Under the pieces are notes generated by a model, which was not told where the DNA came from, ran no database searches, and saw only the letters and a program-made list of their open reading frames with translations. From the NCBI RefSeq assembly GCF_963675165.1, contig NC_087377.1, positions 12,138,632-12,202,631 of the forward strand: 64,000 nucleotides of DNA, written 5' to 3'. The DNA comes from Halichondria panicea (Eukaryota; Porifera; Demospongiae; Suberitida; Halichondriidae). Below, in pieces: positions 12,671 through 63,001 of the stretch. Every line of letters begins with the position of its first letter. Positions within the stretch are counted from its first letter, which is position 1. Both the position numbers and the translations under genes were made by a program.

Positions 12671-14554
12671 CTAATTTTAGAAGAAAACTATATCTCAGAT
12701 CATATTTTTCGGTATAAATTATACTATGTTTAATTTGCTGTTATTTTCTCTACCAAAAAGAGGCGTCTCTAATGTCCAACACGAGTGTAGCATGTCCTGG
12801 TGAGGCTGTTTTGTTCACATGCTCTTCGCCTGGTACTGCATTGATATGGCAAGTGGATCTACTATCACCATCAGCAGGGATGTCACTGCAAAGTATCTTT
12901 CTTCCCTCACAAATTGGTGTTCGAAGGACACTTGGATCTAGAGTGATCATGCTTGAGGCTGTTAATTCTTGTGATCAATGATGGTGAAACTCTGACTTCC
13001 ACTCTCATCAACCTCAATGACGTGTCTGTACTGGATGATAGCAATGTCACCTGTACTGTTACTAACAATGGTCCTATGTCACAGCAGCACACCATCATGG
13101 TTGCTGGTGAGTATTTATACTTCATATAAGCCTGTTGAGATATTTGTATAACTTTCAGTTGTCCCAACACGTCCACTCAATCCAAGCGTATATCCTTCAT
13201 TCAAAACCAGCCCAGTTCGTCCATTATCACTCTGGAGTGGGACCCTCCCTCCTCTACTGGTGGTGTGTCTGTCAGCTATATCCTCACCGTCTCCCCAACA
13301 CATCAGATCTCTCCGGGTCACCAGTCACCATGGATACCACCTCCACACAGATCACTATCTCCTACAACACACCCTACAATGTGACCATCAGAGCTGAAAA
13401 CTGTGCTGGAATGAGTCAAGAAAGTTCAATTGTGGATCTATAAGTAAGCTATGGTGACTGCTGTCATTGATTATAGGCTGCAATTGTATATAAGTATAGG
13501 CTATTTATGGTCATAAAACATATACATAATTATTCCTTCCTTATCAATCAATGCAGTTGTGTGCCCCACTCCATTTACTGCTGCTGGTGTGACCATCACC
13601 AACACACCTCCTTTCACTATTGGTGGATCCATGCTCACCTTCACTTGTAGTAGAGACAATGAAGTGAGAACCTCAACCTGTGGCAGTAGTGGATGGTCTC
13701 CTGACCCTGGGACCTTTGAATGCAGAACAGGTATCCTATATATATGTAGCGGATTAACTGTGTAATGTTGACCTCATTATATCTCCAAGTTACCTGTGGC
13801 TCTCCTGCCACACCGTCCAGAGGTAGTGTGGACGTCAATAGTGGGACACCACCCTTCTCACTAAGCTCAGAAGTCATCTATCGCTGTGATGAGGGACTGT
13901 TCCCCCCTGATGTGAGGACCAGCACATGCACTGATGTGGGGGGTAGGGGAGAGTGGGTGGAGAATCCTGGGAGCTTGGTGTGCAGGGAGAGGCAAGGTGA
14001 AATGTAGCTGTTTAGAGGCAATGTCCTTCGAAAAAGCTTATTTTGTAATTTCTGTGACGTACAGTTGTATTAGCTTACGTATATACCACCCCACCTTTGT
14101 TCCACATTTTCAATGGCAGGTTATTGGTTGCTCGTATTAAGCTGATTGAGATCAATACAACATATCTTTTCTGACCGTCCATATAGCCAACTGCTCTCTT
14201 CCTCTTGAGCTGTGCAATGGTGCTATAGTGGACTATGAGAGGTTGAATGAGACAGTGTTGGAGGGAACAGTGCTGACCTACCAGTGTGACAATGGATTCT
14301 CACTGACTGGACCCAACTGTACCATCACTTGCACTAATGCTGGTGTCTGGAGCACTGAGCCTGAGGCAATCATGTGTATAGTTAATACTAAAGGTCAGTA
14401 ATTGTTTGCTATCCCAAAATACAGTCATACATACTCTATCTCACAGTTTCTACCTTGTTCTCCACTTACAACTGTCGCTATCAGTGTGGTCATCACTTTC
14501 ATTGTCACTCTAGTCATTGGATTCCTCACTGGACTGCTGGTGATGCATCTTTTC

Positions 14555-15754: not shown

Positions 15755-17780
15755 ATGCAAGTACAGACAGTTATTATTATCAGCATCCAGCTGTTTTCTC
15801 TTGCTGCAGGTAAGTTTTATATACATAGATCATCATAATATACAATGTTCACTGGAGCACACAATTTTTCTCAGCCACACTGACATCCACCCCCCCTGTG
15901 GCCTGTCCTGATGACACTGTCACTTTCACCTGCACTCTGCCTGGTATCTTCATACGATGGGACGTCACTCCACCACAAGGCCAAAGGTTTAGCATATCAT
16001 TAAGTATCAGCAACACTGATAGCACACGAGGTAATCCAGCATTCCATGGTGTTCTCACTGACTCCAGTGGAGGAATGCTCACTGCCACTCTCACCTCACA
16101 GTCTGAGGCCTCAACTGCGGAGGGTACTATGGTGGAGTGTGTGGGAGAGAACTCACGAGAGGGTCCTCTCACCATCACTGTGGCTGGTGAGTGACTGATG
16201 GAGTTCTATTATTAATCATTATACCCACAGATCCACCGTCCCCTACTCTCAACGCAAGAGTGTCCTCCACTCAAAACCAGCCTAACTCATCAGATATCTC
16301 TCTGGACTGGGACCCTCCCTCCTCTACTGGTGGTGTATCTGTCAGCTATGTCCTCACCATCTCCCCAACACCTCTCTCCGGGTCACCAGTCACCGTGGAG
16401 ACCACCTCAGCACAGATAACTGTCTCCTACAACACACCCTACAATGTGACCATCAGAGCTGTCAACTGTGTTGGAATGAGTCAAGAAACTTCAATTATTG
16501 ATCTGAGTAAGCCATTTCATGGGGAATGACGTAATTGATTCTAAGTTTTATTTGACTGCAACTGTAAGGTCATAAAACATACGTACTTGGTTATCATACT
16601 ATTAAATCAATGCAGTGGTATGCTCCACACCGTCTACTGCTGCTGGTGTGATCATCACTAACACACCTCCTGTCACTATTGGTGGGTCCATGCTCACCTT
16701 CACTTGTAGTGGAGACAGTGAAGTGAGAACCTCAACCTGTGGCAGTAATGGGTGGTCTCCTGACCCTGGGACCTTTGACTGCAGCAGTCCAGTTACAGGT
16801 ATCATACATGGTCAATTAACTCTCTAAAAGGAATGTTGATCTCATGCATTAGATCCCCAAGTCAGCTGTGGTTCTCTTGCTGCACCGTCTAGAGGTAGTG
16901 TGGACATCAGTAGTAGGACACCACCCTTCTCACTGGGTTCAGAGGTCATCTATCGCTGTGACGATGGACTGTTCCCCCTTGATGTGAAGACCAGCACATG
17001 CACTGATGTGGGGGGTAGGGGAGAGTGGGTGGAGAATCCTGGGAGCTTGGTGTGCAGAGAGAGGCCAGGTGAAACGTAGCTGTTTAGAAGCAATGTTTTT
17101 GATTTCCTTCGAAAAAGTTCATATTATAGATGTACAATATTAGCTTACGTACACCACCTTTGTTCCACATTTCTTAAGTATTCAATGGCAGGTTATTGGG
17201 TGCTCGTATGGATCATTACAAACATATCATTTCTGACCATCCCTATATAGCCAACTGCTCTCTTCCTTCTGAGCCCTGCAACGGCGCTATAGTGGACTAT
17301 GAGAGGTTGAACGAGACAGTGTTTGAGGGAACAGTCCTGACTTACCAGTGTGACAATGGACTCTCACTGACAGGACCCAACACCATCACTTGCACTATTG
17401 CTGGAGTGTGGAGCATTGGGCCTGGGGCAATTAAGTGTGTACTTGTGACTGAAGGTGATGGATGAGCTTTGTAATTGTTTGCTTATCTACTACCGGTATC
17501 CCATCTCACAGTTTCTACTGTCGCTCCTTTGTTCTCCACTTCTGCAACTGTCGCTATCAGTGTGGTCATCACTTTCATTGTCAGTCTAGTCTTTGGATTC
17601 CTCATTGGACTCCTAGTGATGCATGTTTTCTCTCATAAGAAGGCAGTGTTCTCCCCGGCAACTGAAGGACAATCTAACGTAGGACCCACTGCACCAGCTG
17701 TTTCTGTTTATGAAGAGGTGTCACCCAAAGAGGAGATTGAACTTAACACTAACCAGGCGTATGGACCAGTAGGATTGTGA
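15755..17780 (+). CDS. R2: Ig-FN3-sushi x3 transmembrane receptor, 504 aa, intact
   Basis: Seven exons: 15755-15809, 15875-16186, 16231-16506, 16616-16798, 16853-17068, 17251-17454 and 17512-17780 (TGA). All introns are GT-AG and phase 1, and the sum is 1515 nt. Residues 1-18 are a signal peptide (MQVQTVIIISIQLFSLAA). About 19-122 is an Ig domain (Cys pair in TFTC and VEC, Trp in IRW); 123-214 is FN3 (LDWDPP, NVTIRAVN). Three sushi domains at 215-275, 276-347 and 348-415 each have paired Cys and a late Trp. The last exon holds a 24-residue transmembrane helix (ISVVITFIVSLVFGFLIGLL) and a tail of about 50 residues with SVYEEV, which fits the ITIM consensus, plus NQAYGPV, a YxxV within an NxxY context. 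It is a type I surface protein; ligand and signalling are unknown. R1 ends 200 bp upstream in the same orientation. Confidence 0.9.
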
Positions 17781-21933: not shown

Positions 21934-23937
21934 ATGCAAGTACAGACAGTTATTATCAGCATCCAGCTGTTTAGTCTTGCTACAGGTAAGTTATATCATA
22001 GATCTGTACGTGTTAATCACTGGATCGAACACACAATTTGTTTCAGCCACTTTAATATCCACCCCCCCTGTGTCCTGTCCTGATGACACTGTCACTTTCA
22101 CCTGCACTCTGCCTGGTATCTTCATACGGTGGACGGCTACTGATACACAAGGCCTAGTATCTTTGTTCAGTATCACATTGAGTTCCAGCAACACTGATGA
22201 GACACAAGGTAACCCAGCATTCCGAGGTGTTCTCACTGACTCCAGTGGACCTCTCACTGCCACTCTCACCTCACTGTCTGAGTCCTCCATTGTAGAAGGT
22301 ACTACAGTGGAGTGTGTGGGAGACAACTCACGAGAGGGTCCTCTCACTATCACTGTGGCTGGTGAGTTCTTTGTTTGTAACATAACAGTGCGGAACAAGT
22401 ATCACTGATTATAATACACCCATAGATCCACCCTCTCCTCCACTCAACCTAATAGTGTCCTCCATTCTAAATCAACCCAGCTCCTCTAATATCACTCTGG
22501 AGTGGGACCCTCCCTCCTCTACTGGTGGTGTGTCTGTCAGGTATGTCCTCGTTATCTCCCCAACACCTCTCTCCGGGTCACCAGTAACCGTGGATATCAC
22601 CTCGGTACAGATAACTGTCTCCTACAACACACCCTACAATGTGTCTATCAGAGCTGTCAACTGTGTTGGAACAGATGAAAGTTCAATTGTGGATTTGAGT
22701 AAGCTAATGTACTCCTTTATACGATATTGATTGCTTCTCTTTAATACAGTTGTGTGCCCCACACCGTCTACTGCTGCTATGGTGACCATCACCAACACAC
22801 CTCCTGTTACAATTGGTGGATCCATGCTCACCTTCACTTGCAGTGGAGACAATGAAGTGAGAACCTCAACCTGTGGCAGTAGTGGATGGTCTCCTGACCC
22901 TGGGACCTTTGACTGCAGCAGTCCGATTACAGGTATATAATCTTAATTACATAAATTTGTACATGCTTCTTTTCATTGGTGTCCTCATTAGATCCCCCAG
23001 TCACCTGTGGCTCTCCTGATGCACCATCTAGAGGTAGTGTGGGCATCAGTGGTGGGACACCACCCTTCTCACTGGGTTCAGAGGTCACCTATCGCTGTGA
23101 CGAGGGATTGTTCCCCTTTGATGTGAGGACCAGCACATGCACTGATGTGGGGAGTATGGGAGAGTGGGTGGAGAATCCTGGGAGCTTGATGTGCAGGGAG
23201 AGACCAGGTGAAATGTAAATGATCAGAAAAAAATTTTCCGCGAAAAATAATTTCTGTCGATCTGCATGGTCTGTCTACAATTGTATTCAATGGCAGGTCA
23301 TATAATATTGGGTGCTCATGTTGAGCTGATGACATACAAACATCTGTCATGTGCTATAGTCATAGTATAATCATATTATATTTTCTAACCGTCCATATAA
23401 TTATAGTCAACTGCACTGTACCTGTTGAGCCCTGCAACGGTGCTATAGTGGACCATGAGAGGTTGAACGAGACAGTGTTGGAGGGAACAGTGCTGACTTA
23501 CCAGTGTGACAATGGACTCTCATTGACTGGACCCAACACCATTACTTGCACTAATGCTGGAGTGTGGAGCACTGAGCCTGAGGCAATCATGTGTGTGCCA
23601 CCAACTGAAGGTGATATATATATAGATGAGCTTTGTAATTGTTCGCTATTTACCGGTATCTCATCTCACAGTTTCTACTGTCGCTTCCTTGTCCACTTCT
23701 GCAACTGTCGCTATCAGTGTAGTCATCACTTTCATTGTCACTCTAGTCATTGGGTTCCTCACTGGATTGCTGGCGATGCATCTTTTCTCTCGTAAGAAGG
23801 CAGTGTACTTCCCGGCAACTGAAGGACAATCTAATGTAGGACCCACTGCACCAGCTGGTCCTGTTTATGAGGAGGTGTCACCTAAAGAGGAGATTGAACT
23901 CAACACAAACCAAGCATACGGACCAGTAGGACTGTGA
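21934..23937 (+). CDS. R3: Ig-FN3-sushi x3 transmembrane receptor, 502 aa, intact
   Basis: Seven exons: 21934-21985, 22047-22361, 22426-22698, 22750-22932, 22992-23207, 23407-23610 and 23672-23937 (TGA). All junctions are GT-AG and phase 1; the total is 1509 nt. The domain order equals R2: signal peptide 1-17, Ig 18-122, FN3 123-213, sushi 214-274, 275-346 and 347-414, then a TM helix (TFIVTLVIGFLTGLLAMHLF) and a tail with PVYEEV and NQAYGPV. The position two before the first Tyr is Pro here (Ser in R2), so YEEV no longer fits the strict ITIM rule. R3 is a close paralogue of R2; the Ig loop between IRW and the SSSNTD strand and the FN3 N-terminus are the most different parts. Broken relics separate it from R2. 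Confidence 0.9.
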
Positions 23938-25173: not shown

Positions 25174-27452
25174 TTACAGTCCAACTGGTCCATATGCTTG
25201 GTTAGTGTTCAGTTCAATCTCCTCTTTGGGTGACATCTCCTCATAAACAGGACCAGCTGGTACAGTGGGTCTTACGTTAGCTTGTCCATCAGCTGATGGG
25301 GAGTATACTGCTGCCTTCTTATGAGAGCAAAGATACATCACTAGGACTCCAGTGAGGAATCCAATGATCATAAGCAGAACTGCCGTGACAACCACACTAA
25401 CGGAAACAGCAATTCCAAGGTCAGTACCAGTGAATAGAGTTGGGGATTGAGCTGTATATAGGTGGTTCAATATAGATGTGAATACATGCAAGTAACGGAA
25501 ACACTAGCCTTTGCAGACAATTTCCCCTGGATTTTTGTCCCACTCTCCTGTAGCTAGACAGGTGACAGTCATTATTCCTTCAGAGAACAATCCATCGTCA
25601 CACTGAAAGGTCACTTGTGTACCAGGAGTAGCTGGTACTGAATGATCACTGATGGTGCCATTCCTTGGTGGGTACAGTTGAGTTGTGCACCTCATCGGAG
25701 GAGCTGGAATTATCGTGAGAAGTAAGCATATATACACTTACAAGCAAATTGACTCACGAGTTGTGGGGGGAGATTGGGTAAGTTGGCTACACTCAGTAGT
25801 CTCAGGATCTGGACTCCACATCAGTGTACTCTCACATGTAACCACTGTAACAGCAGATACATACCCAGCGTCACACTGGATGGTTACTATGGATTCTGGC
25901 AATCTGCTGGACACCTGTACAAAGGCTCTGTTTGTAGAGTTGGTCAACATAGGACAGCCGCCTGAGAGGAAATCAGAAATTAATGTGACTGTATGTGTGT
26001 TTAATAATATTGATACTTGGCAGCTTACCAATCAAAAAGTTATACTCAGCAGTTGTACTGTTCCCAGCACAGTTGGTAGCCACAACACTGACAGTGTAGT
26101 TCAAATTGTATTGAGCTGTCACAGTGACGGAGGTGGATGTGAGGACAGTAGCAGAGAGCTGGGCCAGAGGTGAAATAATCACTGTGTAGGTTCGATCACC
26201 AGTCTCAGTAGGAGGGTTCCAACCAACAGTTACACTAACTTTATTGGCTGAGCTACTCAGAATTGAGTCACTGAATCCATTTGGTGGTGTGTTAGCTGTA
26301 GAAAAGTATTATGCTTTGCAAAACTTGCTATGCATGCATATAATCTCACTTGCTGTCAGTATGGTTAGTTCTTCCCTCAACTCAGGCTGCAATAAAGAAA
26401 GACAACTAATAGTGATTCCCTCCACCGCAGGGAAACTCAAACTTGAGGTGATCACTGAACTGGTAGAATTAAACATGATAAATGTAACGGTGTACTGATC
26501 TCGTTGGAATGGAAGTTCTGTTATTCTATCAAGTATCAAGTCCCTTGTTGGATCAGGTACGTCCCATTCCAGCAAAGCCCCAGGCACTGTACAAGTGAGT
26601 GAGATCACATCTCCAGCACAGGGGGTCTCAGTGTAGTCACGAGTCAGACCACCTAGCACCAAGGGTACACCTTTAGGAAGGAGATCTAGAATCAGATTTA
26701 GATATTTGCAAACATAGACACTATAGACTCTAGTATAGGCAGGACACACACATTTATTTTCTCTCAATTTCAAGCTACCTTAATAACTATAATTATTCTC
26801 AGAAATCTGGGGAATTTGGATAACAACGTAAATGATCCAGTGCATGACGTTTTATTTCTTCAATCACGTATCTATACTAATATTATACAGTATCTACAGT
26901 TCAGGCCCTACTGTTAACAGTGAAGATGACCATCTATAGCCTTGGCAAAGCCGAAGAAAAATAGCTCATAGAGTGAAGTGTTACAACAAACCTACATCAA
27001 TTTTACTATTCTTTTGTGCAGCTATAGCTCTGCATGTGTACATGCATGCACACTGACTTATATGAATTTGTACTCTGATTGTTTGGATTAATGTTCAGTT
27101 GTACGGAACATGTTACAAGATAAGTTTGCACATGCGCAGCAAACAGTCAGTAGCCCTTTTTTCACTCAAGACTTGTGGAGGAGGCTAATTGCATCTCTGA
27201 TAAGCTAAAAGAAAATCTTCCCTCAGACTCCCTTACTTAATTCATCTTCCCCAATAGCCATTAATCCTACAGTCATATTCATTTGCAAAATAATGATTTC
27301 ATAAGATGAAACATGCAACGTGATTGTTCATTTGAGGGTACTTTCTCTCTGTTCTCACAATGAATATTAATACCTATACACTACAGTGACTTACCAACCA
27401 CTAAAACCCAAATAGTTCTAGATATAGCCTCAGCTTGTGTCATCAGAGTCAT
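25174..27452 (-). CDS. R4: Ig-FN3-sushi x2 transmembrane receptor, 445 aa
   Basis: Minus-strand exons, 5' to 3': 27395-27452, 26350-26685, 26029-26295, 25758-25961, 25509-25703 and 25174-25451, totalling 1338 nt. The start encodes MTLMTQAEAISRTIWVLVV, a signal anchor or signal peptide; a second ATG is at 27443. Then come an Ig domain (SLTC, LLEWDV, ISC), FN3 (GWNPPTETG, YTVSVVATNCAG), two sushi domains, a TM helix (SVVVTAVLLMIIGFLTGVLV) and a tail with VYEEM and NQAYGPV. YEEM is of the YxxM type favoured by PI3K SH2 domains, unlike YEEV in R2 and R3. It has one sushi domain fewer than its neighbours. The intron after the exon at 25509 has a GC donor (AAAG/GCTAGT), the only non-canonical site in the model. 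It is head to head with R5, 204 bp apart. Confidence 0.85.
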
Positions 27453-27655: not shown

Positions 27656-29846
27656 ATGCAAGTAAAAGCAGTTACTATTATTCAGTTGTTTGCTGTTGCT
27701 GCAGGTAGGACTTAGGTATAATTGTGTGTTCATGCACTAGAACCTTGACTTTAGCTAAAATTATTTTTGTATGCAGCCACACTGACATCCACCTCCACTG
27801 TGTCCTGTCCTGATGACACTGTCACCTTCACCTGCACTCTGCCTGGTAGTGTCATACGATGGACGGTCACTTCTCCACAACTACAAGTATTCACCATAAC
27901 TTTAGACACCAGCAACATTGATGTCACACGAGGTAATCCAGCATTCCGTGGTGTTCTCACTGACTCCAGTGGAGGAATTAATGCTCACTGCCACTCTCAC
28001 CTCACTGTCTGAGGCCTCCATTGTAGAGGGTACTATGGTGGAGTGCTTGCATGGGAGCGAGCTCACGAGAGGGTCCTCATACCATCACTATGGCTGGTGA
28101 GTTGACTGCTCTTTGTTTTGTAACATTATATAAAAGTGTGGAACAAGTGATTAATATACCCACATGCAGATCCACCCTCACGTCCACTCAATTCAAGAGT
28201 ATCCTCCACTCTAAACCAACTCAGCTCCTCTATTATCACTCTGGACTAGGACCCTCCCTCCTCTACTGGTGGTGTGTCAGTCAGCTATGTCGTCACCATC
28301 TCCCCAACACCTCTCTCCGGGTCACCAGTCACCGTGGAGACCACCTCAGCACAGATATAACTGTTCCTACAACACTCCCTACAATATGACCATCAGAGCT
28401 GTCAACTGTGTTGGAATGAGTCAAGAGAGTTTAATTGAGGATATGAGTAAGCCATTTCATGGTCATATACAACAATCAGGTATACTTTTAACGCAGTTGT
28501 GTGTCCCACACCGTCTACTGCTGCTGGTGTGACCATCACCAACACACCTCTTGTCACTATTGGTGGATCCATGTTCACCTTCACTTGTAGTAGAGATAGT
28601 GAAGTGAGAACCTCAACCTGTGGCAGTAGCGGGTGGTCTCCTAACCCTGGGACCTTTGACTGCAGCAGTCCGATTACAGGTATCATATAGGGGCAATTAA
28701 CTCTCTAAAAGGAATCATATCCCCAAGTCAGCTGTGGTTCTCCTGCTGCACCGTCTAGAGGCAGTTTGGACATCAATGGTGGGACACCACCCTTCTCACT
28801 GGGTTCACAGGTAATCTATCGCTGTGATGAGGGACTGTTCCCTCCTGATGTGAGAACCAGTACATGCACTGATGTGGGGGATAGGGGAGAGTGGGTGGAC
28901 ACTCCTGGGAGCTTGGTGTGCATAGAGAGGCCAGGTGAAATGTAGTTGGGCCAAGCCAACTTCTAGGCAGGCCGGTAAAAAAATTCTGAAGAGTGGGAGT
29001 TTTTAGACTCTTAAATTGTTAGGCTTCCTAAACCACACTGAGTTTTATGGTAACCTTATGGAGTGGGTGGTTGTGGGTGTTTTTCTAGCAAAAAGTGACT
29101 CGCTTACATTCGTGAAGCGTGTAATTAAGTTGGCTTGGCCTTGTTCAGAGGATTTTTGATTTCCTTCATTCTATAATTTCTGTGAATTGTATTAGCTTAC
29201 GTACACCGCTTTCATTCCACACTTTCTTAACTATTCAATGGCAGGTTATTGGATGCTCGTGTTGAGCTGATTGAGATACAAACATGTACTCATAGTCATT
29301 ATCTGACCGTCCCTATAGTCAACTGCTCTCTTCCTCTTGAGCCCTGCAACGGTGGTATAGTGGACTATGAGAGGTGGTTGAACGAGATAGTGTCAGAGGG
29401 AACAGTGCTGACTTACCAGTGTGACAGTAGACTCTCACTGACTGGACCCAACAACGTCACTTGCACTAATGCTGGAGTCTGGAGCACAGAGCCTGAGGCA
29501 ATCATTTGTGTACTTATAACTGAAGGTGATGAGCTTTGTAATTGTTTGCTATCTACTATATATCCCATCTCACAGTTTCTACTGTCGCTCCTTTGTTCTC
29601 CACTTCTGCAACTGTCGCTATCAGTGTGGTCATCACTTTCATTGTCACTCTAGTCATTGGATTCCTCACTGGGCTCCTAGTGATGCATGTTTTCTCTCGT
29701 AAGAAGACGGTGTACTTCCCGGCAACTGAAGGACAAGCTAACGTAGGACCCACTATACACTAGCTGGTCCTGTTTATGAAGAGGTGTCACCCACAGAGGA
29801 GATTGAACTGAACACTAACCAGGCGTATGGACCAGTAGGACTGTGA
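27656..29846 (+). pseudogene. R5: Ig-FN3-sushi x3-TM receptor copy, broken
   Basis: Exons by homology with R2: 27656-27704 (signal MQVKAVTIIQLFAVAA), 27777-28096 (Ig), 28170-28446 (FN3), 28497-28679, 28728-28934 and 29319-29525 (sushi), 29576-29846 (TM and tail). Splice sites are preserved, but the Ig exon has a 4-base insertion near 27980 and a disrupted C-terminal strand near 28045. The FN3 exon has TAG in place of the conserved Trp codon (28247-28249) and a 1-base shift near 28355. The tail has a 2-base insertion creating TAG before YEEV (near 29760). Several independent lesions argue for a true pseudogene. An AATAAA lies at 29881-29886. Confidence 0.85.
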
Positions 29847-36650: not shown

Positions 36651-37156
36651 GTGTGTGGTGGGTGGTTGAAGCTGTAATGTGTAAACATACTGATTATATC
36701 TGCTATTAATACTGAACACATGATACCGGACTTTAGGGGATATGGTTACACAGGCACAACTATCACATGACCACCCACTCACCTTAGTGCCCAGCTCTGC
36801 AGTACAGATGCAGGCTGCCTCACTGCATGGTTGGACGCCTGGCTCTGGGAGATGTAGAAGCCAACCTGGTTTGGATTACTGAGCTCTGTATATATTTTTA
36901 TATGTGTGCTACTGAAGACCCCCAAAAGTAGTATTTTCCTACACAAACGTGGCTCTGGGATATGTATGACTATATACCTGCACAGCATCACAACAATTTA
37001 GTTATTATAGATTCGGCTAGCTCGTCTAATGTTTTGTTCTAAACACAGAAACTCACCACTTTGTGGATGTGCTGCTCTACCAGCTGCACTCCCCTGGTCT
37101 GTGTGACCGCCCTCCAGGTCTTGAGAGTAGATCCTCACACCCTCAGCCACATAGTA
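35546..37156 (-). pseudogene. HEAT-repeat-like gene fragment, copy H2 (five blocks)
   Basis: Minus-strand blocks, 5' to 3': 37058-37156 (RYYVAEGVRIYS, then frameshifted LVEQHIHKV); 36783-36865 (FYISQSQASNHAV, SVLQSWALR); 36557-36586 (DCLKPYVRRL between an ACAG acceptor and a GTGAGC donor); about 36150-36250 (LETLLK, CAETLQHRHYPQHINL); and 35546-35660 (LLGRMILRGRIEQ). Together with H1 and H3 this defines one ancestral gene of helical repeats, VEQHIHKV-DFYISQSQ-NHAVRE-CIAELG-PYVRRL in order, consistent with HEAT repeats. A frameshift in the first block and missing connections suggest decay. A 66-bp (GT)n run lies in one intron. Confidence 0.5.
36590..36657. repeat. (GT)n microsatellite
   Basis: About 33 GT units with a single GC interruption. 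Confidence 0.95.
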
Positions 37157-39983: not shown

Positions 39984-40111
39984 ACTCTACTGTGGTGCTT
40001 ACGTAGATGTACGTACATGTACGTTTGAATGAAAGTTTTTATACAGTCCCACTTACTCATTACCACTAGATCTACCACATGCCACTATCTATTAATGTAC
40101 TGATGCATACT

Positions 40112-40560
40112 CACCAGCCTCAAGATTTCCTTTGCAAGTTGTTCCTCCAGATCTTACTGAGATAATTATGATCTGCCAGCTCCCTCCATGTTGGTCGTCC
40201 AGAACAACTCTTAGGCAAACCAGCCGTTACAATGTATCTTTCAGGGTCTGGGTCCGCAAGACTACTCTTCCATCATCCATTAGTCAACCACTTCAGTCAA
40301 ACAGCAGCTGAGACAAAACAGGGGTAAAGACCCACTACACAATAAACATGAAGTGAGACAAGTGATAAGGGTCTGATAAAGGGTCATGCAATCTACAACC
40401 ATTATTTGATGGACAGATAAAGGGTCATACAATCTACAACCGTGGTACGTAATTCAACGACTGGTTGGGTAGCAGTGACTGTGTAGTTGTCTCTCCTCTG
40501 GGAGGAACTCCCTCGTAACCACGAAGGCTAACATACACAATATAACGTATCATGCTTGAC
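40112..40560 (-). pseudogene. Death-domain exon relic plus coding-like block
   Basis: The minus strand contains SGRPTWRELADH followed by decayed LAKEIL-like text (40112-40265), a clear relative of the R6 death-domain exon. Further 5' on the minus strand, 40440-40545 reads VYVSLRGYEGVPPRGETT without stops, a block also present in part at 32160-32215. Stops and lost splice sites show it is not a working gene. Confidence 0.45.
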
Positions 40561-44647: not shown

Positions 44648-46480
44648 CTAGTGCTTGGTGTAGTGCTTAGAAGGGAGTGGAGGTGCCGGGGGTTCGTTGT
44701 TAGGGGCTGGTTTAGGGGGACGGGCTGGAACTATCTCAATAGTTCTGCATGGGAAAAGTGATCAAGATAAGAACCGTTAACACTACTAAATGATACAAGG
44801 GTAAAGTTATGATGACAGAACCACAGTTTATAATTATTTGTATAGCTCAAACATGGGAGACACGTACATGTATTTGATGCATCTGTGGACCCATTATCCC
44901 AACCCAGAGGAGGTACGACACGCGTGCCTCGATGAGGCTAATTACCTCTGCAATAACGTTGAGCGTGGGCGGATAATCAAGGCGTGGTTACGCCCACGTT
45001 CAACGTTATTGCAGAGGTAATTAGCCTAATCGAGGCACGCGTGTCGTACCTCCTCTGATCCCAACCTATACCAACCTATATGGACACCTCACCCTTTCGT
45101 TGGATTAAGGTTTACCTATAAAAACTTCGGTTGCTGACCACCATACAATTGCATTGGTAGTTATACATGGGAGCATTTTGTGGCACTCAACTTACGGTTT
45201 AGGAGGACGTGAGGGAGGCAGTGCCTTTGGTAATCCGGGGCCGTCATCTGTCATGGTGGGGGATCGAGAGGGGAGGGGAGGGGGAGGGGCTCGGTCGTAC
45301 TTGTACACGGTACTTGGTACTGCCTTCATGTTCAACTCCACTGGGAGGCGACCTGTGAGTGAGTGTGACGAGTGGGGTAGTGTGGGTCATAATCATACTG
45401 TAGGGTGTATTTTGCTCCAGCAATTAAACTACTTGGATCGAGTTAACAGCTGTTAAACATACAAAGAGTCTCATTTTGGTAAACAGGGAAGCATAATTAT
45501 TATGTTATATACCACAGTTCTCAATGAATGGAGAGAAGAGCAAGAATGTGGCTTGTTGTAAAGTGAAGCAGTGTTGTGTCTAGTAGTTGGGTAGTTAGGA
45601 CACAACACAATACTGCCCACACAATCAAGGGAAGCCAGGTGTGGGCCCTTGGGATAAGTGGATACGTGTACGTGTGTACATACATGATGTACATGTACAT
45701 GATAATGACCTTTTTATGATGGCAGTTTAGTCGAGCTAAGGTAATTTGAGTACAATATTGTGACTGTCAATTAGAAAGGCTATTAGGGTTGCTTAAACAT
45801 AATATAATTATAGGTATAGCAATAACAACAATAATATTATGCTTTTCCAATAACGTACAGTCGATTGTGAGTATTTTTTTATACATGTATACGGACGGAC
45901 ACAATGACAGGCCACTATTACAGTTACCAGCTTATAGACTACCAACAGGGCCACAATTCAAGCAACACACATGAAACCACTACTCACCAGTTTCGTAGAT
46001 ATTTATGAGCTCCTTTGCTAGCTGCTCCTCTCCAATATTATGGAGATGACCAGCCAGCTCCCTCCAGGTTGGTCGCCCAGAACAGCCCCTCATCCATTGG
46101 TCGATCACCTCCGTTAGACAGCCACCATGGTTGACTCCACACGAATCCTCAATCTAAAATGAGATATTTGAGTGAGTAACGGGTTACACCAACAATAGAT
46201 GGCACTTCTATTTGTACGATTAAGGTGTGACCAAACAATGGGTTAATTATAGACTTTTAAGTTATCAACTTTCATCATTTACACATTCCTTCACACCACG
46301 TACAGAACAATGATTGACCCTTGATAGATTTAAGATTAGTAAGTACCTGTTCAATCATTGTTTTAGGCAGCCTCATAGTCTCAGCCAGCTCCCTCCATTT
46401 GTGGTCCATTGACCTGATCTGGACCAAGGCCTGGTCAATGTCCAGGAGCTTGTCCACATCAGGCAGGGCTGGGGCTGAGG

Positions 46481-46549
<69 letters not shown>

Positions 46550-47850
46550 GAGAGAGAGAACTGACCTTGCTAATGCAAAGAGGCCACCTAAAACATATTT
46601 CAGTAGGCTATGCTTCAGGGCAGCACTACAATTAGGCCACCTGTCACTGGAGGAAGCAATGAATGCTATACACTTTCTAACACCCAAGCCATGAATACCA
46701 TTGAGGGGAGTCTATACAGCAGCTATATCTTGCTGTACCAACTCATGATCAGTGTGTGAATCCACATAACAAGGTTAGCTCTCAATTGCAATATCCACAA
46801 AAAAGCGTTTTGCGTTGAGCGTTCCTTATAAGGTTATCTGTGGTCAACCATAAAGCTGTATCTTAGTCAACAATGCACTACATGTATTCTACAAACAGTT
46901 GATGGATCAACTTGAAGATTCTCAGCAACACTTTGATAAGACAGTCCAAGCAGCTCTGTCTGATGCACTATCTCCATCTTATATCCCAAATAATGCCTTG
47001 GTCAGCTTTTTTCACAAGAAAAATCCATATTTTGCTTCCTAATCAGACATGGCATTTCACCACAATGTGTTTATGAGACCACAATGTGTAAAGATTAGAT
47101 ATCCATATAAGGAACGCTCTACAATTTCAAAGATTCTGCAAAACCCTGTACCCACTGCCTTAAAAGGTAAGGGTAAAACCAGAAGCTTACGTAAACTTGA
47201 CAGCTTATCAAAGAACCACCACTGGTTCCTAATCAGCTGGTCAGGTGATGGGATTCTGCCATGATTAAGAAAGAGTGTGCTGTAATGTTGTCAACAACAC
47301 TATATGCAACTGAATCGGAAAAAATGGGGATCTCGCTAGATATCTCTAACTACCAGGAACGGACGCACTATGGTACATTCTAACATATCTGGTACACCTA
47401 TCAAAATCATTGACAAAGCCTCAAAGCCTATCACACAAACAGGCTCACCTGTTGGGCTGGCTGGGAGGGTGGCTGCTTTGGCTTGCTTCCTACTGGTGGC
47501 AGCAACATCCACAGTGGCGTAGGTGACCTGGTGTTGGTCCACTGTGGCAGTCGTGTTTTTGCCTTTCTTGTGGGACTGGCTGGAGCTAAGGGCAGCATAC
47601 ACCACTGGTTCCACTGTATCCTGGGGTGTCGGGAAACAAACAGAGTCAAGAATAGCTTTCAGTTACAGATCTGTACAATGTGACGCAGGATATTGTGGTA
47701 AAGTATTGTATTGGTGTATATGCATCACAGGACACATCAACATGCACAAACAGTTTCATTATGAACCAAAGATGATTTGTTTAACTTGAAGTATATAGTT
47801 ACAATGCCAACCAAAACAGACACCCATTAGTCACAATACTCTCACTAATG

Positions 47851-47890
<40 letters not shown>

Positions 47891-50348
47891 ACATTGCCGA
47901 GCTGTCCATAGCCGGGTAGTCTCTGAGTCTGCAGGAAAATGGAATGCAATGAACAATTGTGTCAAGATGAAATTACCTGTCCAGTGTTCATTGTACTGTA
48001 GCCTTCTGAGTTGATTCCTATCTTCTGTAAGGAGGAAAAATCAAAAATCAATGTTTTGTTCAATAGCTCTAGGTAGTGTTACGTACATTGTCTGAGTTGA
48101 GGACCACCTCATCGTAAGTCAGTGCCCCAGCATCCTGTATATAAATACATAGAAAGTGAGTGAACTGCAAATTTTTTATAATATGCCATAAACCAATTTG
48201 ACTAAATGTGAGGTACCATGGTCTACATGTATATAGTGTGAACTGACTGAGCTCTTCTCACCGGGCTACGATTAACTCTGCTGTAACCCTCAGAGTCACC
48301 CTCAGAGTCAGGAGGTTGGGCCTGACAGAGAGATAGATCAAGAGAAGGGGGGGGGGGGGGGGAGATTATTTGAGGCTTTTACTTTCCAGCATCATAATTA
48401 TGTACAACAGCAAAAAAGAATATAACTCACTTTCTTTGCATTCCTTGGGCCATCGTGCCTCAGCTCGCTGTAGTCTCCCTGAGCAGTGACACACAGGTAC
48501 ACACTACACACCGAGTTTATGATCTTACCTGAAGTCCCGACATCTCCACCACATCTTCTCTGAACTCGTCTGATTTCTGCCTCCTCAGTAAGAACAGGGC
48601 AACCACCACAATGACTATGAGACACACTACCACCAATATACCTACAACAACACCACCTACAATAGGTCCAATGCCAGTACCTGGGGGTGATATATGGACA
48701 GAGCAATGTAAAACTAAACAAGTTGTATATAAACATCACCTTCAGTCAGTACACACGTTATTTCCTCAGGCTCAATGCTCCACACTCCAGCATTAGTGCA
48801 AGTGATGGTGTTGGGTTCAGTCAGTGAGAGTCCATTGTTACACTGGTAAGTCAGCACTGTTCCTTCCAACACTGTCTCATTCAACATCTCATAGTTGAAT
48901 ACAATACCATTGACATTTGTTATTGTAATAGTATCGTTGAATGGTACAACAGGTACAGTGCAGTTGACTGTGAATGGCAGATACATATAATACCAATTTA
49001 AACATACATTCTCAAACATTACCTGGCCTCTCCCTGCACACCAAGCTCCCAGGATTCTCCACCCACTCTCCCCTACCCCCCACATCAGTGCATGTACTGG
49101 TCCTCACATCAGGGGGGAACAGTCCCTCGTCACAGCGGTAGATTACCTGTGAGCCTATTAAGAAGGGTGGTGTCCCACCATTGACGTCCACATTACCTCT
49201 GGATGGTGTGGCAGGAGAGCCACAGGTAACTTGGGGATATAATGAGGTCAACATTACACAGTTAATCCACTACGTAGGATATACCTGTTCTGCAGTCATA
49301 GGTCCCAGGATCAGGAGACCACCCACTACTGCCACAGGTTGAGGTTCTCACTTCATTGTCTCCACTACAAGTGAAGGAGAGCATGGATCCACCAATAGTG
49401 ACAGGAGGTGTGTTGGTGATGGTCACCCCAGCAGCAGTAAACGGTGTGGGGCACACAACTGTATAAAGAGAAGTAATACGTGCATGTGTTGTAGGCAAGA
49501 CATAATTATCGTACTTAGATCCACAATTGAAGTTTCATTCATTCCAGCACAGTTAACAGCTCTGATGGTCATATTGTAAGGAGTGTTGTAAGAGACGGTG
49601 ATCTGTCCAGAGGTGGTCCCCACGGTGACTGGTGACTTGGAGAGAGGTGTTAGGGAGATGGTGAGGACATAACTGACAGACACACCACCAGTAGAGGAGG
49701 GGGAGTCCCAGTCCAGAGTGATATTAGAGGAGCTGGGTTGATTTAGAGTGAAAGATACTCTCGGGTTGAGTGGACGTGAGGGTGGATCTGCATGTGGGTG
49801 TATCAAGTTGATCAAGGAATTTATTTATGAAAAGAACTCACCAGCCACAGTGATGGTGAGAGGACCTTCTTGTGAGCTCTCTCCATCACACTCCACCATA
49901 GTACCCTCCACAATGGAGGCCTCAGACAGTGAGGTGAGAGTGGCAGTGAGGGGTCCACTGGAGTCAGTGAGAACACCACGAAATGCTGGATCACCTCCTG
50001 TCTCATTAATATTGGTGTTGGGAATCAAATTGATTCTGAACAACTCTATCCGGCCTTGTGGAGCAGCCATTGCAGCAAACACCGTCCATCGTATGAGACT
50101 ACCAGGCAGAGTGCAGGTGAAGGTGACAGTGTCATCAGGACAAGCCACAGTGGATGGAGATGTTGTCAGTGAGGCTGCAAAAATTTACCTAGATCTAGAA
50201 TCCTGTACCAGGCTATCTCAATCTCCACAACCATTTAGCTCTAATACTTACCTTTCGCTTGCCATGAACAAGCTAGTAATATTATTAGTGTGACCGTAGC
50301 AAACACTAGACGGATACGTAGTAGACACCATATTCTTGAAGCTCCCAT
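44648..50348 (-). CDS. R6: Ig-FN3-sushi x3 receptor with tyrosine-motif tail, death domain and Pro-rich C-terminus, 799 aa
   Basis: Seventeen minus-strand exons: 50252-50348, 49842-50174, 49515-49787, 49285-49458, 49023-49229, 48740-48967, 48529-48680, 48431-48478, 48262-48321, 48087-48134, 47977-48024, 47890-47928, 47449-47620, 46347-46480, 45988-46153, 45196-45319 and 44648-44744. They sum to 2400 nt, one open frame ending in TAG. Signal peptide 1-32, Ig 33-143, FN3 144-234, sushi 235-437, TM helix about 443-472 (GGVVVGILVVVCLIVIVVVA). The tail (to 626) has YSEL, YSRV, LTYDEV, YSTM, YGQL, VVYAAL and VTYATV; LTYDEV, VVYAAL and VTYATV fit the ITIM rule. Residues 627-726 resemble a death domain (HKWRELAETM, CLTEVIDQW, PTWRELAGH, EEQLAKELI). 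Then APPPPLPSRSP and PARPPKPAP, typical SH3 ligands. SH2-phosphatase and death-fold signalling are inferred. The 13-codon YGQL exon is the least certain. Confidence 0.85.
44905..45057. mobile_element. Foldback MITE, 153 bp, 9-bp TSD, in the last R6 intron
   Basis: Arms of about 66 bp are near-perfect inverted repeats starting CAGAGGAGGTACGACACGCG. ATCCCAACC is duplicated at 44896-44904 and 45058-45066. The 9-bp duplication matches the TAGCCTCGA elements, but the termini differ. Confidence 0.85.
46482..46549. repeat. (GT)n microsatellite abutting an R6 splice acceptor
   Basis: On the R6 coding strand this is a (CA)n tract running directly into the ACAG acceptor of the first death-domain exon, replacing the usual pyrimidine tract. 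Confidence 0.9.
46870..47265 (+). other. Open coding-like stretch inside an R6 intron, unrecognised
   Basis: The plus strand reads QLMDQLEDSQQHFDKTVQAA, then SDALSPSYIPNNALVSFFHK to a stop at 47040-47042. A second frame from 47049 continues for 71 codons (KIRYPYKERSTISKIL). TGAGCGTTCCTTATA at 46816 and its complement near 47105 are inverted. It could be a transposon remnant; no domain is recognised. Confidence 0.25.
47855..47890. repeat. (CA)n microsatellite overlapping an R6 splice donor
   Basis: On the coding strand of R6 the YGQL exon ends AATGTG and passes straight into (GT)n, so the donor GT is part of the microsatellite. Confidence 0.85.
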
Positions 50349-51433: not shown

Positions 51434-53005
51434 ATGACTTTCGTAGCAAGAGTAAGTTATTTAGATGATAGTCTAGGGAGAGATCTATCTTAATTTCCTA
51501 CCGATTGTTTTCCCAGGTGAAGGTGTCCTATGTATTATTTTGTATAAACCTTCAGTACATTAATTATGATCAAATCTATATATTTTCTATTGAATAGGTA
51601 GTGTTGTTGCTTGCTCTTGCAATTCAAGCATCAGTTTTATATGGTAAGTAGCTACAGTGATTTTTGTCCCATCAAGAGATCGATTCTGATTTTGTTTTTA
51701 CATTTAGGTCAGGTGGTAGACATTGCTTCAGATTTAGACACAGCCGGTCGTAACTTTTCCTGTACTGGCGAAGTTGTCACATACACTTGCAGTGGTCAAG
51801 GAAACACTTTAACTATAAATTGTCCACCATTATTCACTTCGAATGTATTCCTCAGCAATGACCCTGTCCCTGATGCTGTTTCCACTGTTCCGAATGTTAT
51901 TCTTACCCTAACAAACAGAGTAATAAACGGGTCGCGTACATTTTATGCTGTAAACCTGCAAATCACAGTGTTGAATGATGCACGAATCGATGTTTCATGC
52001 TCTACTAACGCTACAAACAATGTTGCAATACCACTGATCCATGAGTGTAAGTTGTTCAGCTGTTCATAATTAAAAATTATAATTATATAAAACTTTAATT
52101 CATACAGCAAGTACAATCGAACCACCATCCATTGTGACATTTTCTGGAGACATGACACTATCATGGACCCCACCTTTGAACCCTCAGTTTGACATTGATT
52201 ATTATATTGTGAGAATTTACGTGGATGGAATTTTGAACACAACTAGGAGCTCTCGTGATAATAGTCTGGATATAGATGTCCCGGGAAATATCACTGCTAC
52301 TGTTAGTACTGTTAGCACTTGCGACAAAGTTAGTGACTCACAACCGTCTGATGGATTTATCATCATTGGAGAAAGCACCAATATACCAATACTAGTCCCT
52401 GATAATCAAGGTTTGTTCGAACTTTTAGTGCATGTGCTCACAAACATATATAGGAACAAAATTGTGCCGTATTATAGTTACGACACTTCCTTGTAAAATA
52501 ATACTTTTTCTGTAGGATTGATTGGTGGCATTGTGGTTCTCGCAATATTGTGTGCTGTCTTCCTCATCGCTTTTGTAACACTGGCATTGTTGTTCGCAAT
52601 GTTAAGGAAAACAGTAAGCATTCAATTTATGTATAATTATACTCTGCAGGAGCCAATGCATGTGGTTGAATGTGAGCCAAAAGGTTGTATTACCTTGTTT
52701 TTACACTTCCCTTGCAGATATCAAAGTTGAAACAAAATCAACGACAGGTGCGTTTAGTAACATTTATGTAAAGAGCTGTTGAATCTCCAAATAATACATT
52801 TTGGTTTTAGAAAAGTTTATTTGGGGATGGCACTGTCCCTCATTATTTACGTTATGCTCTGTAAAGTGTTAAGACTGATTTAGTAATGTCTAAGATTGGA
52901 ATGATTTTGCGTTATTTTTCTTTTTCTCACTGTAGGATTCTTGAAGAAACTGACATTTATCAAGATAGTGTAGTGTATGTACATAGTAAATGTGTGCTGC
53001 CTTAA
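51434..53005 (+). CDS. R7: small Ig-FN3 transmembrane protein with tyrosine-containing tail, 317 aa
   Basis: Eight exons: 51434-51451, 51598-51643, 51708-52046, 52108-52410, 52516-52613, 52718-52747, 52811-52860 and 52936-53005 (TAA), total 954 nt. Signal peptide MTFVAR then VVLLLALAIQASVLYG; Ig-like domain at about 22-134 (VTYTC, final VSC); FN3-like domain at 135-235 (LSWTPPLNP, IDYYIVRIYVDG, ATVSTVSTC); TM helix at 240-263 (IGGIVVLAILCAVFLIAFVT); and a 50-residue tail ending DIYQDSVVYVHSK with two Tyr. It has no sushi domain and is more diverged from R2-R5 than they are from each other, though the order and phase-1 introns of the ectodomain are the same. The last three exons are short, and the phase-2 junction at 52860/52936 is the weakest part. 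The ligand is unknown. Confidence 0.7.
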
Positions 53006-60032: not shown

Positions 60033-63001
60033 ATGATGAGAGCAATGCAACTGTTTACAGCAAATACCCTGCAGTTGTTTGCTTTTACTGCAGGTAATTA
60101 TAAGAACTATAGCTACACATTATAGACGTCTGTCTTCACTAGCCTAAGTTTACATGTTTTGCAGCCTCACTGACAACATCTCCATCCACTGTGGCTTGTC
60201 CTGATGACACTGTCACCTTCACCTGCACTCTGCCTGGTAGTCTCATACGATGGACGGTGTTTGCTGCAATGGCTGCTCCACAAGGCCGGATAGAGTTGTT
60301 CAGAATCAATTTGATTCCCAACACCAATATTAATGAGACAGGAGGTGATCCAGCATTTCGTGGTGTTCTCACTGACTCCAGTGGACCCCTCACTGCCACT
60401 CTCACCTCACTGTCTGAGGCCTCCATTGTGGAGGGTACTATGGTGGAGTGTGATGGAGAGAGCTCACAAGAAGGTCCTCTCACCATCACTGTGCATGTGG
60501 CTGGTAGGTTCTTTTCATAAATAAATTTCTTGATCAACTTGATACACCCACATGCAGATCCACCCTCACGTCCACTCAACCCGAGAGTATCTTTCACTCT
60601 AAATCAACCCAGCTCCTCTAATATCACTCTGGACTGGGACTCCCCCTCCTCTACTGGTGGTGTGTCTGTCAGTTATGTCCTCACCATCTCCCCAACACCT
60701 CTCTCTGGGTCACCAGTAACCATGGAGACCACCTCTGCACAGATCACCGTTTTCTTTAACACACCCTACAATGTGATCATCAGAGCTGTCAACTGTGCTG
60801 GAATGAGCGACACCTCAATATTTACTGTACCATCCATAGGTCAGTGCAGGGGCGTAGCCAGGGGGGGGGGGCTCATGGTGCTCAAGCACCCCCTTTCTAT
60901 CTGAGATTGTACAAAAAGTGTACCTGATTGTCTAGCTGAGCACACCCTTCTCTTCCAGATCTTGCTGCAGTTAACTAGCTAGTAGGCAAGCAAAACAAAT
61001 TGGTCTTTAAACTGTGAGCTATTCTAGCTTAGATCTATAGACTAGTAGTCTGTTCTCTTTCATAGCTAAATAGGCTTCTCTAATGCACCTATCAATGTCA
61101 GTCCCCACTACCCCCCCTGCGGGGCATAGTGGGGACATAGTGGGGTTTTTTGGGGTTTTGATTCAGCAAGTAACCCCGAGGTGCGGGATAGGGTGGGGAA
61201 TTTGATTTCCTCAATATACAAACTTATAGCAGTAATATCCGGAAAAGTATAGCACATGCACACGTGTAGTCAAATCCCGGGGTTGTTAAGTGGGGGTATG
61301 GGAGGAGAAGTGGGGATTTGATTTCAACCAGGCCCCCTGGGGTGGGGCAATTGATATTGATGTAATCAAATCCCCACTAAACCCCGACATAGCCCGCATG
61401 GGGGGTAGTGGGGACTGGAATTGATAGGTGCATAAGCAAATAGAAGATTGGGCCACACCCAACTATTAATTACGACAGCATTAATTAGAGGTGTGGCTTC
61501 CGGTCAACCAAATATCGGCACTGCGTGGCTAAAAATCGGCCGCTTTGCGCCCTCTTCTTTCTATGATAGCACCCCCTTCCTCAAAATCCTGGCTACGCCC
61601 CTGCAGTATTATTAACCCGAGGTGCGCTGCGGTGCCACGGGTTATAGTAGTCGGTCATGCAGTCAGTCTGTCTGTCTGTCTGTCTGTCTGTTTGAGTCTA
61701 CTCACCTAGATGCAATAACACTGTGTTTGTACTATATTATGGGATAGCCTCAACGCAACAAGGTACATAGTTTGGCAGATTTTGATTTAAAGCTTCGTTG
61801 TCGAATAAAAGCTAGCAAAAGCTATAAGAAGCTAATAAGCTCGAACCTGTGCATGTTGGCCTAGATGTACACGCGGCTTTGCCTCTATAGACTCGCTAAT
61901 CCTGAAATTAACACTGAGGGTTTGCACTTCAGTGCTCTAGTTTACAATTATAAGCACTAAATTAGCGTCTTAGTTCATGTATACTCTTTCTCTACTCAGT
62001 TTCCTGTCCCTCCTCCCTCTCTGCTGCTAGTGGTGTGGTCATTGTCCAGATACCCAGTGTACCGACTGTGGGCTCCACACTGACCTTCACTTGTTTTGAA
62101 AGTAATCAAATGATACCCTCTACCTGTGGCAGTGATGGACAGTGGAGTCCTAACCCTGAGGATTTCATGTGCCCAACAATAGGTGAGTATAATTATAGAT
62201 GTGCAGTTTGCTTGCATTCAAGTTATGCATGGTATTTGACTGTATTGTTAAATACCAATAATTATAGTGACATGTGATGTTCCTGCGGCCCCCTCTATGG
62301 GTAGTGTGAACACTAATGGTCAGTCTTACACAGAGGGGTCACAGGTAACTTATCAGTGCAATGATGGACTGTTCCCCATGTGTGTTCTGACTGCCACTTG
62401 CACAAGAGATGGACAAAATGGAGTGTGGGAGCCTGATCCTAGTGTTGTGGTGTGCAGGACATCTCCAGGTAATGTAATTCTTCTCTAAACAAGATGTTCA
62501 TAGAGCATTCACTCCATGCGTTAAGCTTCATTGCGCAGCGGCAAAACGGATACTTTATAATATTATGGGTGAATCTATAAAGCAACAATTAGAAAACAGT
62601 GTTTTTGTCGCATTCGAAGATCGCCTACTATAATTATGAACTAGCCTATTATTTTTCAATTATTGTCTCATTAGCAGCCAGTCCAGTTCGCTCACACAGC
62701 TCATTTTTATGTCCACACACACACCAATCACTTTACCCCTGCTCCGCACGCACGGGGTAATTTATAATTAACTATGTGTATGCATGCACTGTCACAGTTA
62801 ACTGCTTTCTACCTGAGGAGCCCTCAAACAGAACTATAGTAAACTATGAAAGGTTGAATGTAACAGTGTTGGAGGGAACAGTGCTGACTTACCAGTGTGA
62901 CAATGGACTCTCACTGACTGGACCCAACACCATCACTTGCACTAATGCTGGAGTCTGGAGCACTGAGCCTGAGGCAATCAAGTGTGTGTCACCAACTGAA
63001 G
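60033..63001 (+). CDS. R8: Ig-FN3-sushi x3 receptor, 5' part (continues beyond the window)
   Basis: Exons 60033-60093, 60165-60503, 60558-60839, 62000-62182, 62268-62468 and 62798-63001, all phase 1, cover 423 residues: signal peptide (MMRAMQLF, LQLFAFTA; alternative starts at 60036 and 60045), Ig, FN3 and three sushi domains. The TM exon expected after 63001 is not in the last kilobase. The Ig and FN3 exons and the intron between them are almost identical to those of R6 on the opposite strand (49515-50174), apart from a 6-base insertion (two codons, HV) before the end of the Ig exon. Sushi 1 and 2 differ strongly from R6, while sushi 3 is close to R3. The FN3-sushi intron carries a 757-bp transposon. 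Whether its tail is the YEEV or the death-domain type cannot be seen. Confidence 0.85.
60847..61603. mobile_element. TIR element with CAGGGGCGTAGCCAGG ends in an R8 intron, with a nested element
   Basis: CAGGGGCGTAGCCAGG and its complement end the element; CAGTG and CAGTA flank it (5-bp duplication with one change). Inside, 61083-61434 is another inverted-repeat element (ATGCACCTATCAAT with GTCCCCACTACCCCCC, and complement), rich in GGGG runs. Confidence 0.7.
61660..61692. repeat. (GTCT)n microsatellite
   Basis: Seven to eight uninterrupted GTCT units in the R8 intron. Confidence 0.85.

Follow-up and report, generated by a model that had tools for sequence, protein, structure and literature searches.

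Can a single receptor chain combine an inhibitory-type tyrosine array with a death domain, and in what kind of receptor system would such a chain act? This question is raised by R6, a gene on the minus strand of a 64,000-nucleotide stretch of the genome of the sponge Halichondria panicea (the window), which lies at 12.14-12.20 Mb on the 18.1-Mb contig NC_087377.1 (C1). An earlier note on this DNA had proposed that R6 encodes a receptor with immunoreceptor tyrosine-based inhibitory motifs (ITIMs) and a death domain. As far as sequence can tell, this observation is confirmed as real: one gene model carries both an ITIM-type tyrosine array and a true death domain. A second result is the stronger finding, namely that R6 looks like one arm of a paired-receptor system in this sponge; as we infer, it is the arm that inhibits and signals death.

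The R6 gene model

The splice model derived from the sequence assigns 17 exons to positions 44648-50348 of the minus strand. All 16 introns have GT-AG borders, the phases agree, and the joined frame reads through 810 residues without a stop. In a scripted comparison, this product was letter-identical to the annotated H. panicea protein LOC135347988 (NCBI, 810 residues). The single gene model of the earlier note is retained with its exon number and outer coordinates, and its length of 799 residues is corrected to 810. The NCBI predicted protein spans all 17 exons, with neither an end before 47449 nor a separate start at the death-domain exons. In order, R6 comprises a signal peptide, an Ig domain, a fibronectin type III (FN3) domain, sushi repeats, a transmembrane helix, seven YxxPhi tyrosines (three of ITIM type), a death domain and a Pro-rich end. 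The three sushi domains described before are recovered by their Cys/Trp pattern; two of them exceed the Pfam cut-off, and the repeat in exon 4 is assigned by the pattern. The exons are as follows.

50252..50348, minus: exon 1, start codon and signal peptide (residues 1-32); splice model, hydrophobic N-terminus
49842..50174, minus: exon 2, Ig-like domain (residues 33-143); splice model, zero substitutions against the Ig exon of the neighbouring gene R7
49515..49787, minus: exon 3, FN3 domain (residues 144-234); splice model, Pfam, fold search
49285..49458, minus: exon 4, sushi-like repeat 1; Cys/Trp pattern
49023..49229, minus: exon 5, sushi repeat 2; splice model, Pfam
48740..48967, minus: exon 6, sushi repeat 3; splice model, Pfam
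48529..48680, minus: exon 7, transmembrane helix (about residues 448-469) and basic stop-transfer; splice model, hydrophobicity
48431..48478, minus: exon 8, Y491 (YSEL); splice model
48262..48321, minus: exon 9, Y517 (YSRV); splice model
48087..48134, minus: exon 10, ITIM-type Y531 (LTYDEV); splice model, motif statistics
47977..48024, minus: exon 11, Y549 (YSTM); splice model
47890..47928, minus: exon 12, Y563 (YGQL), GT repeat adjoining the donor; splice model
47449..47620, minus: exon 13, twin ITIM-type Y577 (VVYAAL) and Y603 (VTYATV); splice model, 15-locus comparison
46347..46480, minus: exon 14, first half of the death domain (residues 627-671), acceptor behind a CA repeat; splice model, profile, fold
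45988..46153, minus: exon 15, second half of the death domain (residues 672-726); splice model, profile, fold
45196..45352, minus: exon 16, Pro-rich with PxxP motifs; splice model
44648..44744, minus: exon 17, Pro-rich C-terminus and stop codon; splice model

The intron that separates exons 16 and 17 contains a large inverted repeat, recognized by eye at about 44903-45060 and possibly a small mobile element.

An ITIM-type tyrosine array and a death domain in one tail

The 164-residue linker of R6 contains seven tyrosines, all of which are part of a YxxPhi motif, a number that was reached in none of 20000 shuffles. Three motifs of this cytoplasmic tail, LTYDEV, VVYAAL and VTYATV, fit the ITIM pattern [ILVS]xYxx[ILV] (P 0.001, shuffles). 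Both counts are those given in the earlier note. The motifs at Y577 and Y603 are 26 residues apart; this spacing and their YAT[V/I] core presumably resemble the tail of PD-1, and we take YSTM (Y549) to be a p85-type YxxM motif. The YxxPhi form is also read by AP-2 as an endocytic signal. Among the ten long-tail proteins compared, all seven R6-type tyrosines are kept in P0001-P0005, six in P0006, four in P0009 and two each in P0007 and P0010; P0008 has four of its own. In a Pfam search, SIT, an adaptor that interacts with SHP2, was matched by two of the ten long-tail relatives (best E 6.9e-4).

Fold searches with the whole 810-residue model were dominated by matches to Ig, FN3 and sushi domains, and the death domain was therefore folded separately. 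Structure prediction yielded the six helices of a death fold, with FADD, RIPK1 and other death domains as the nearest structures in the fold search. Together with the profile searches, this bears out the previous assignment of residues 627-726 to the death fold. R6 alone matched the Pfam death domain at E 0.00093 (19.7 bits, below the cut-off of 22.6), and nine of the ten long-tail relatives did so at E<=0.1 (best 4.7e-8). A profile of the death-domain family was required to reach FADD (E 3.6e-5), as the single R6 domain, searched against PDB sequences, matched FADD only at E 1, behind two unrelated matches. We consider the death domain, as modelled, to be genuine. Among Pfam matches up to E 1, R6 had no TNFR cysteine-rich domain and, unlike UNC5-type receptors, no ZU5 or thrombospondin domains; an ordinary TNFR-type death receptor was ruled out by the missing TNFR domain.

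R6 belongs to a large clustered family with two tail types

An ectodomain protein search, which relied on shared words and similar length and scored 7994 candidates, returned 21 H. panicea proteins including R6, plus one rodent complement factor H. The 20 further sponge relatives comprise 17 short-tail proteins (about 450-525 residues), the long-tail proteins P0002 and P0003, and P0028. The long tail carries seven YxxPhi motifs (three ITIM-type), the death domain and the Pro-rich end. The short tail consists of PVYEEV, 13 residues and mostly YGP[LV]: PVYEEV is present in 17 of 17 proteins and the second motif in 15 of 17, with a spacing wider than in an immunoreceptor tyrosine-based activation motif (ITAM). 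The 19-residue transmembrane windows of the 17 short-tail proteins contain no charged residue. The fusion of receptor and death domain is also annotated in no fewer than six relatives (P0002-P0006, P0009). As observations apart, P0028, encoded on another contig (7.59 Mb) outside the cluster, is a receptor tyrosine kinase with a related ectodomain and so represents a third output type, and P0008 (LOC135351151) carries two death domains. A P0008-type receptor region at C1:14426000-14432000 has two death-domain matches with one open frame each and tyrosine motifs unlike those of R6.

Over about 2.7 Mb, the R6-family cluster contains a minimum of 148 short-tail exons, together with 15 loci whose ITIM and death-domain exons are open. 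Genome searches scored the best 150 of 279 (FN3 exon), 268 (short-tail exon) or 503 (another search) candidates, and the counts are lower bounds; moreover, each match is an exon rather than a proven gene, and some lie close together and may share one gene. The FN3 exon gave at least 150 matches, 141 of them within C1:11.25-13.91 Mb. At least 150 matches were likewise obtained for the short-tail exon, all on C1 and 148 inside the same block. The ITIM exon (exon 13) had 20 matches, all within C1:11.41-13.81 Mb, and the second death-domain exon 52, ten of them at >=82% identity. At 15 of the 20 ITIM-exon loci, exons 13-15 are collinear and open, and all 15 carry both the Y577 and the Y603 motif in the form V[VI]YA[AV]L / VTYATV. 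The remaining five each carry a TAA stop and were excluded from the motif and substitution-rate sets, which consist of exon-13 matches with a collinear exon 15. Across the 105 non-independent pairs from the 15 loci, the median ratio of non-synonymous to synonymous change (dN/dS) was 0.31 for the ITIM exon and 0.20 for the death domain, with dN<dS in 104 and 105 of the pairs, respectively. Simple counts gave no sign of positive selection on the ectodomain: compared with three relatives in the window, the Ig exon had a dN/dS of 0.53-0.63.

Long- and short-tail receptors share converted ectodomains

Closely similar ectodomains on different tails, as in paired receptors, are found in this family: R6 and the short-tail protein P0011 are 86% alike in the ectodomain, and their tails are unlike. 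A tree of the ectodomains was built from 24 of the 29 retrieved proteins, leaving out P0003, P0007, P0009 and P0010 (partial or shortened ectodomains) and the rodent P0029. Two of its sister pairs join a long-tail to a short-tail protein: R6 to P0011 (100/99) and P0002 to P0024 (100/100). Four changes of tail type are needed on this tree, at least three of which are forced by well-supported branches.

The closest link involves R7, which sits about 10 kb from R6 on the opposite strand:

60157..60692, plus: tract of R7 (LOC135348523, P0016; short tail) matching R6 50182-49653, with three substitutions and one 6-bp insertion
60161..62997, plus: R7 ectodomain exons

The transmembrane and tail exon of R7, just beyond the window end (L031 6930-7178), is of the short type, with the tail PVYEEV...NQAYGPV. 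Over the 333 bp of the Ig exon, R6 and R7 differ by no substitution, the 6-bp insertion in R7 aside, compared with 29 substitutions in 273 positions of the FN3 exon and 33 in 78 of intron 1. The near-identical tract of 530 bp ends abruptly, with 29 substitutions in the next 138 bp. As the Ig exon is free of substitutions within a near-identical tract on opposite strands, we conclude that R6 and R7 underwent recent gene conversion, which keeps the putative ligand-binding exon alike. Opposite orientation extends across the cluster: among the 150 short-tail exons listed, 36 of the 40 short-tail flanks of the 20 ITIM exons lie on the opposite strand (Fisher p 1e-7 for tail type versus strand). From these sequences, the R6 ectodomain appears to be common to the short-tail receptors of the cluster via gene conversion and tail shuffling.

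Candidate partners and a proposed mechanism

The H. panicea genome contains candidate partners for such tails. An SHP-2 orthologue on contig C3, which provides the species with an SH2 phosphatase, has SH2, SH2 and phosphatase exons in order. Its SH2 exons match PTPN11 at E 1e-29 (N-terminal) and 1e-41 (C-terminal), making PTPN11/SHP-2 the nearest relative, although the phosphatase exon alone fits several protein tyrosine phosphatases. Three Src-type SH2-kinase frames were found on C2 and an SH2-ankyrin-SH2-kinase order, Syk/Shark-like, on C9 (kinases assigned by motif only). On C7, a DED and a death-domain exon lie about 0.45 kb apart, the latter with FADD as best match (E 7e-4). With SHP-2-like, Src-type, Syk/Shark-like and FADD-like genes present, both proposed outputs have possible partners. 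Separately, C4:0.04-2.6 Mb holds a long array of tyrosine-phosphatase domain matches.

The anatomy of R6, its family, the conversion, the orientation, the low dN/dS and the partner genes are observed. On this basis, we favour, at somewhat better than even confidence, a reading of R6 as the long-tail arm of a paired-receptor-like family that would restrain short-tail partners via SHP-2 and would also nucleate death-domain signalling. Phosphorylation, SHP-2 docking, the sign of the short-tail signal, the death-domain partner and the ligand are parts that we infer. R6 and short-tail receptors would bind the same ligand, and Src-family kinases would phosphorylate their tails. VVpYAAL and VTpYATV, 26 residues apart, could then dock the tandem SH2 domains of SHP-2, which would damp the signalling of short-tail partners, whose pYEEV may recruit Src- or Syk-type SH2 proteins. 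In clustered R6, the death domain would nucleate a FADD-like adaptor and lead to caspase or NF-kB-type signalling. One recognition event might accordingly end in restraint or in a death or rejection response, set by tyrosine phosphorylation and clustering. The earlier suggestion that a sponge receptor couples SH2-phosphatase inhibition to death signalling stands as far as motifs and death domain occur in one gene model; their function in such coupling is putative.

Several observations weigh against this reading. Judged by its sequence, the short tail does not follow the canonical ITAM, and YxxPhi motifs can also direct endocytosis. On the ectodomain tree, a single clade unites three other long-tail genes, and tail types show slightly more clustering than in most shuffled labellings (33 of 500 gave as low a value). 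R6 itself has one of its two short-tail flanks on the opposite strand, and the R7 annotation has a weak signal peptide. A role with pathogen decoys, which is compatible with this reading, fits as well as one in self/non-self recognition.

Alternative explanations

This last point concerns the ligand. The cluster may be an array of pathogen-recognition and decoy genes, as suggested for CEACAMs, in which R6 would be targeted and short-tail genes would serve as decoys or counter-receptors. Such an array, which is compatible with a paired system, is a serious but less than even possibility. With frog CEACAMs it shares opposite orientation and a conversion that is confined to the putative ligand-binding exon (PMC5112662, cited here, like the other papers, from excerpts), and lipopolysaccharide-responsive sushi or Ig genes are reported for H. 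panicea, not identified there as the genes described here (PMC8242945). On the other hand, no microbial ligand is known, and a linked array of this size is also in keeping with histocompatibility complexes, for example Botryllus fuhc with its 53 FcoR loci (PMC12065747).

Rather unlikely, in our estimate, is that R6 is a plain activating, inflammatory death-domain receptor in which the YxxPhi motifs would serve AP-2 endocytosis or recruit positive adaptors (SHP-2/ERK, p85), with no inhibition. The form of all seven tyrosines, the p85-type YSTM and a phosphatase nearest to PTPN11/SHP-2, often a positive signaller, would suit such a receptor. However, an endocytic signal would require neither the hydrophobic residue at -2 in three motifs nor the conservation of the twin V[VI]YA[AV]L / VTYATV at 15 of 15 loci.

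The stops in some cluster exon matches (five of 20 for the ITIM exon) raise the thought that R6 is an intact but unexpressed relic of a partly decaying array; R6 itself is without a stop and the tail exons of 15 loci have low dN/dS, which makes this very improbable. Least probable of all is an annotation artefact that fused a sushi receptor to a separate death-domain gene: the exon 14 acceptor does lie behind a long CA repeat, the exon 12 donor adjoins a GT repeat, and our splice model and that of NCBI rest on the same genome sequence, but the identical NCBI model, the matching exon phases of R6, the at least six annotated relatives with the same fusion and the 15 loci with collinear exons 13-15 lead us to reject it.

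Other features of the window

Further members of the family, identified by sequence match, lie within the window:

12718..14554, plus: further related ectodomain and transmembrane exons
15829..17777, plus: short-tail relative, tail SVYEEV...QAYGPV
21953..23934, plus: short-tail relative with Ig, FN3, sushi and transmembrane segments, tail PVYEEV...QAYGPV
25177..26650, minus: further short-tail relative
27773..29843, plus: short-tail relative with an in-frame stop in the FN3 exon, probably a pseudogene

Isolated fragments like the second death-domain exon at 32776-32913 and 40081-40309 (minus) are likely relics. Two segments at 3189-3287 and 36777-36868 (minus) match the aberrant end (residues 434-465) of the annotated protein P0010, perhaps a repeat element absorbed into the gene model. 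Head to head with R6, a receptor-like gene at 51602-52730 (plus) has Ig/FN3-like frames and a transmembrane segment; it gave no match to R6-family proteins in the window comparison.

A possible role in self/non-self recognition

The mechanism of invertebrate self/non-self recognition is unsettled (PMC12065747), and we believe the same holds for sponges. The R6 locus is a concrete candidate that bears the marks of paired receptors: converted ectodomains, different tails and opposite orientation. Since the allorecognition families of Botryllus and Hydractinia carry ITIM-type tails, self/non-self recognition is a plausible role and perhaps that of the R6 system. More tentatively, and doubtful as a whole, the multi-megabase complex might be the allorecognition locus of H. 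panicea. Its inhibitory arm, with its own death domain, would unite SHP-2/ITIM 'tolerate' and FADD-type 'kill/reject' in one receptor, and its Ig exons would be matched to those of opposite-strand short-tail partners by conversion. Expression in each H. panicea individual is reported to be limited to about half of the putative recognition receptors (PMC8242945); copy-number or haplotype variation in the R6 cluster could be one cause. If true, the tail would place restraint and death signalling in one chain, and it would raise the questions whether SHP-type inhibition dates back to the origin of animals and whether receptors with death domains have evolved outside the TNF-receptor family as well.

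Comparison with known systems

The literature searched contained no paired-like Ig-FN3-sushi receptor that has a separate ITIM-type array plus a death domain, and to this extent the design is new. Titles and abstract beginnings on sponge receptors, sponge allorecognition and the H. panicea genome contained no description of the cluster or the tail. Protein searches for the R6-type tail returned H. panicea proteins and rodent factor H; they required exact shared words and similar total length, and absence elsewhere is not proven.

We know of no death domain or sushi repeats in vertebrate paired receptors, and, unlike theirs, the sponge short tail has no canonical ITAM. Protein searches (shared words, similar length) found no sequence kinship between the two. 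The architecture is alike: CEACAM1/CEACAM3 and the Xenopus Ceacams also combine near-identical ligand-binding Ig exons with differing tails, conversion limited to about the Ig exon, opposite transcription and clustered genes (PMC5112662). In frogs, exon-limited conversion that left virtually no synonymous differences was taken, along with opposite orientation, as evidence for paired receptors (PMC5112662).

Among invertebrates, no sushi or death domain is known to us in Hydractinia Alr. Neither Alr nor Botryllus FcoR was matched in our ectodomain search among its 7994 scored candidates. Like R6, FcoR are type I proteins that combine Ig and sushi domains with ITIM or hemITAM tails, and they form a multigene family of the histocompatibility locus; they differ in having two C2 Ig domains and, as described, no FN3, and with 53 loci their array is smaller than that of the sponge (PMC12065747). 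The term 'death domain' does not occur in the text of that paper, which mentions Alr as a genomic complex of allorecognition candidates bearing ITIM/ITAM motifs (PMC12065747), a point of likeness to the R6 family.

TNF-family death receptors carry TNFR cysteine-rich domains outside, where R6 has Ig, FN3 and sushi, and to our knowledge they have no separate ITIM array. Like R6, CD95 and TRAIL-R are transmembrane proteins with a death domain. Such receptors are reported to bind SHP-1, and CD95 has an ITAM/ITIM-like motif around Tyr291 within its death domain (PMC4572867, PMC10967194, citing Daigle et al. 2002); TRAIL-R itself is without an ITIM (PMC10967194). The strict separation of ITIM and death receptors in vertebrates that the earlier note assumed is weakened by these reports, and coupling of both pathways is not unheard of; what is unusual in R6 is a separate ITIM-type array next to a death domain. 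Within sponges, Ig-TIR receptors offer a parallel design, with Ig domains outside and an innate-immune signalling domain inside, a TIR in place of the death domain of R6 (PMC6208332).

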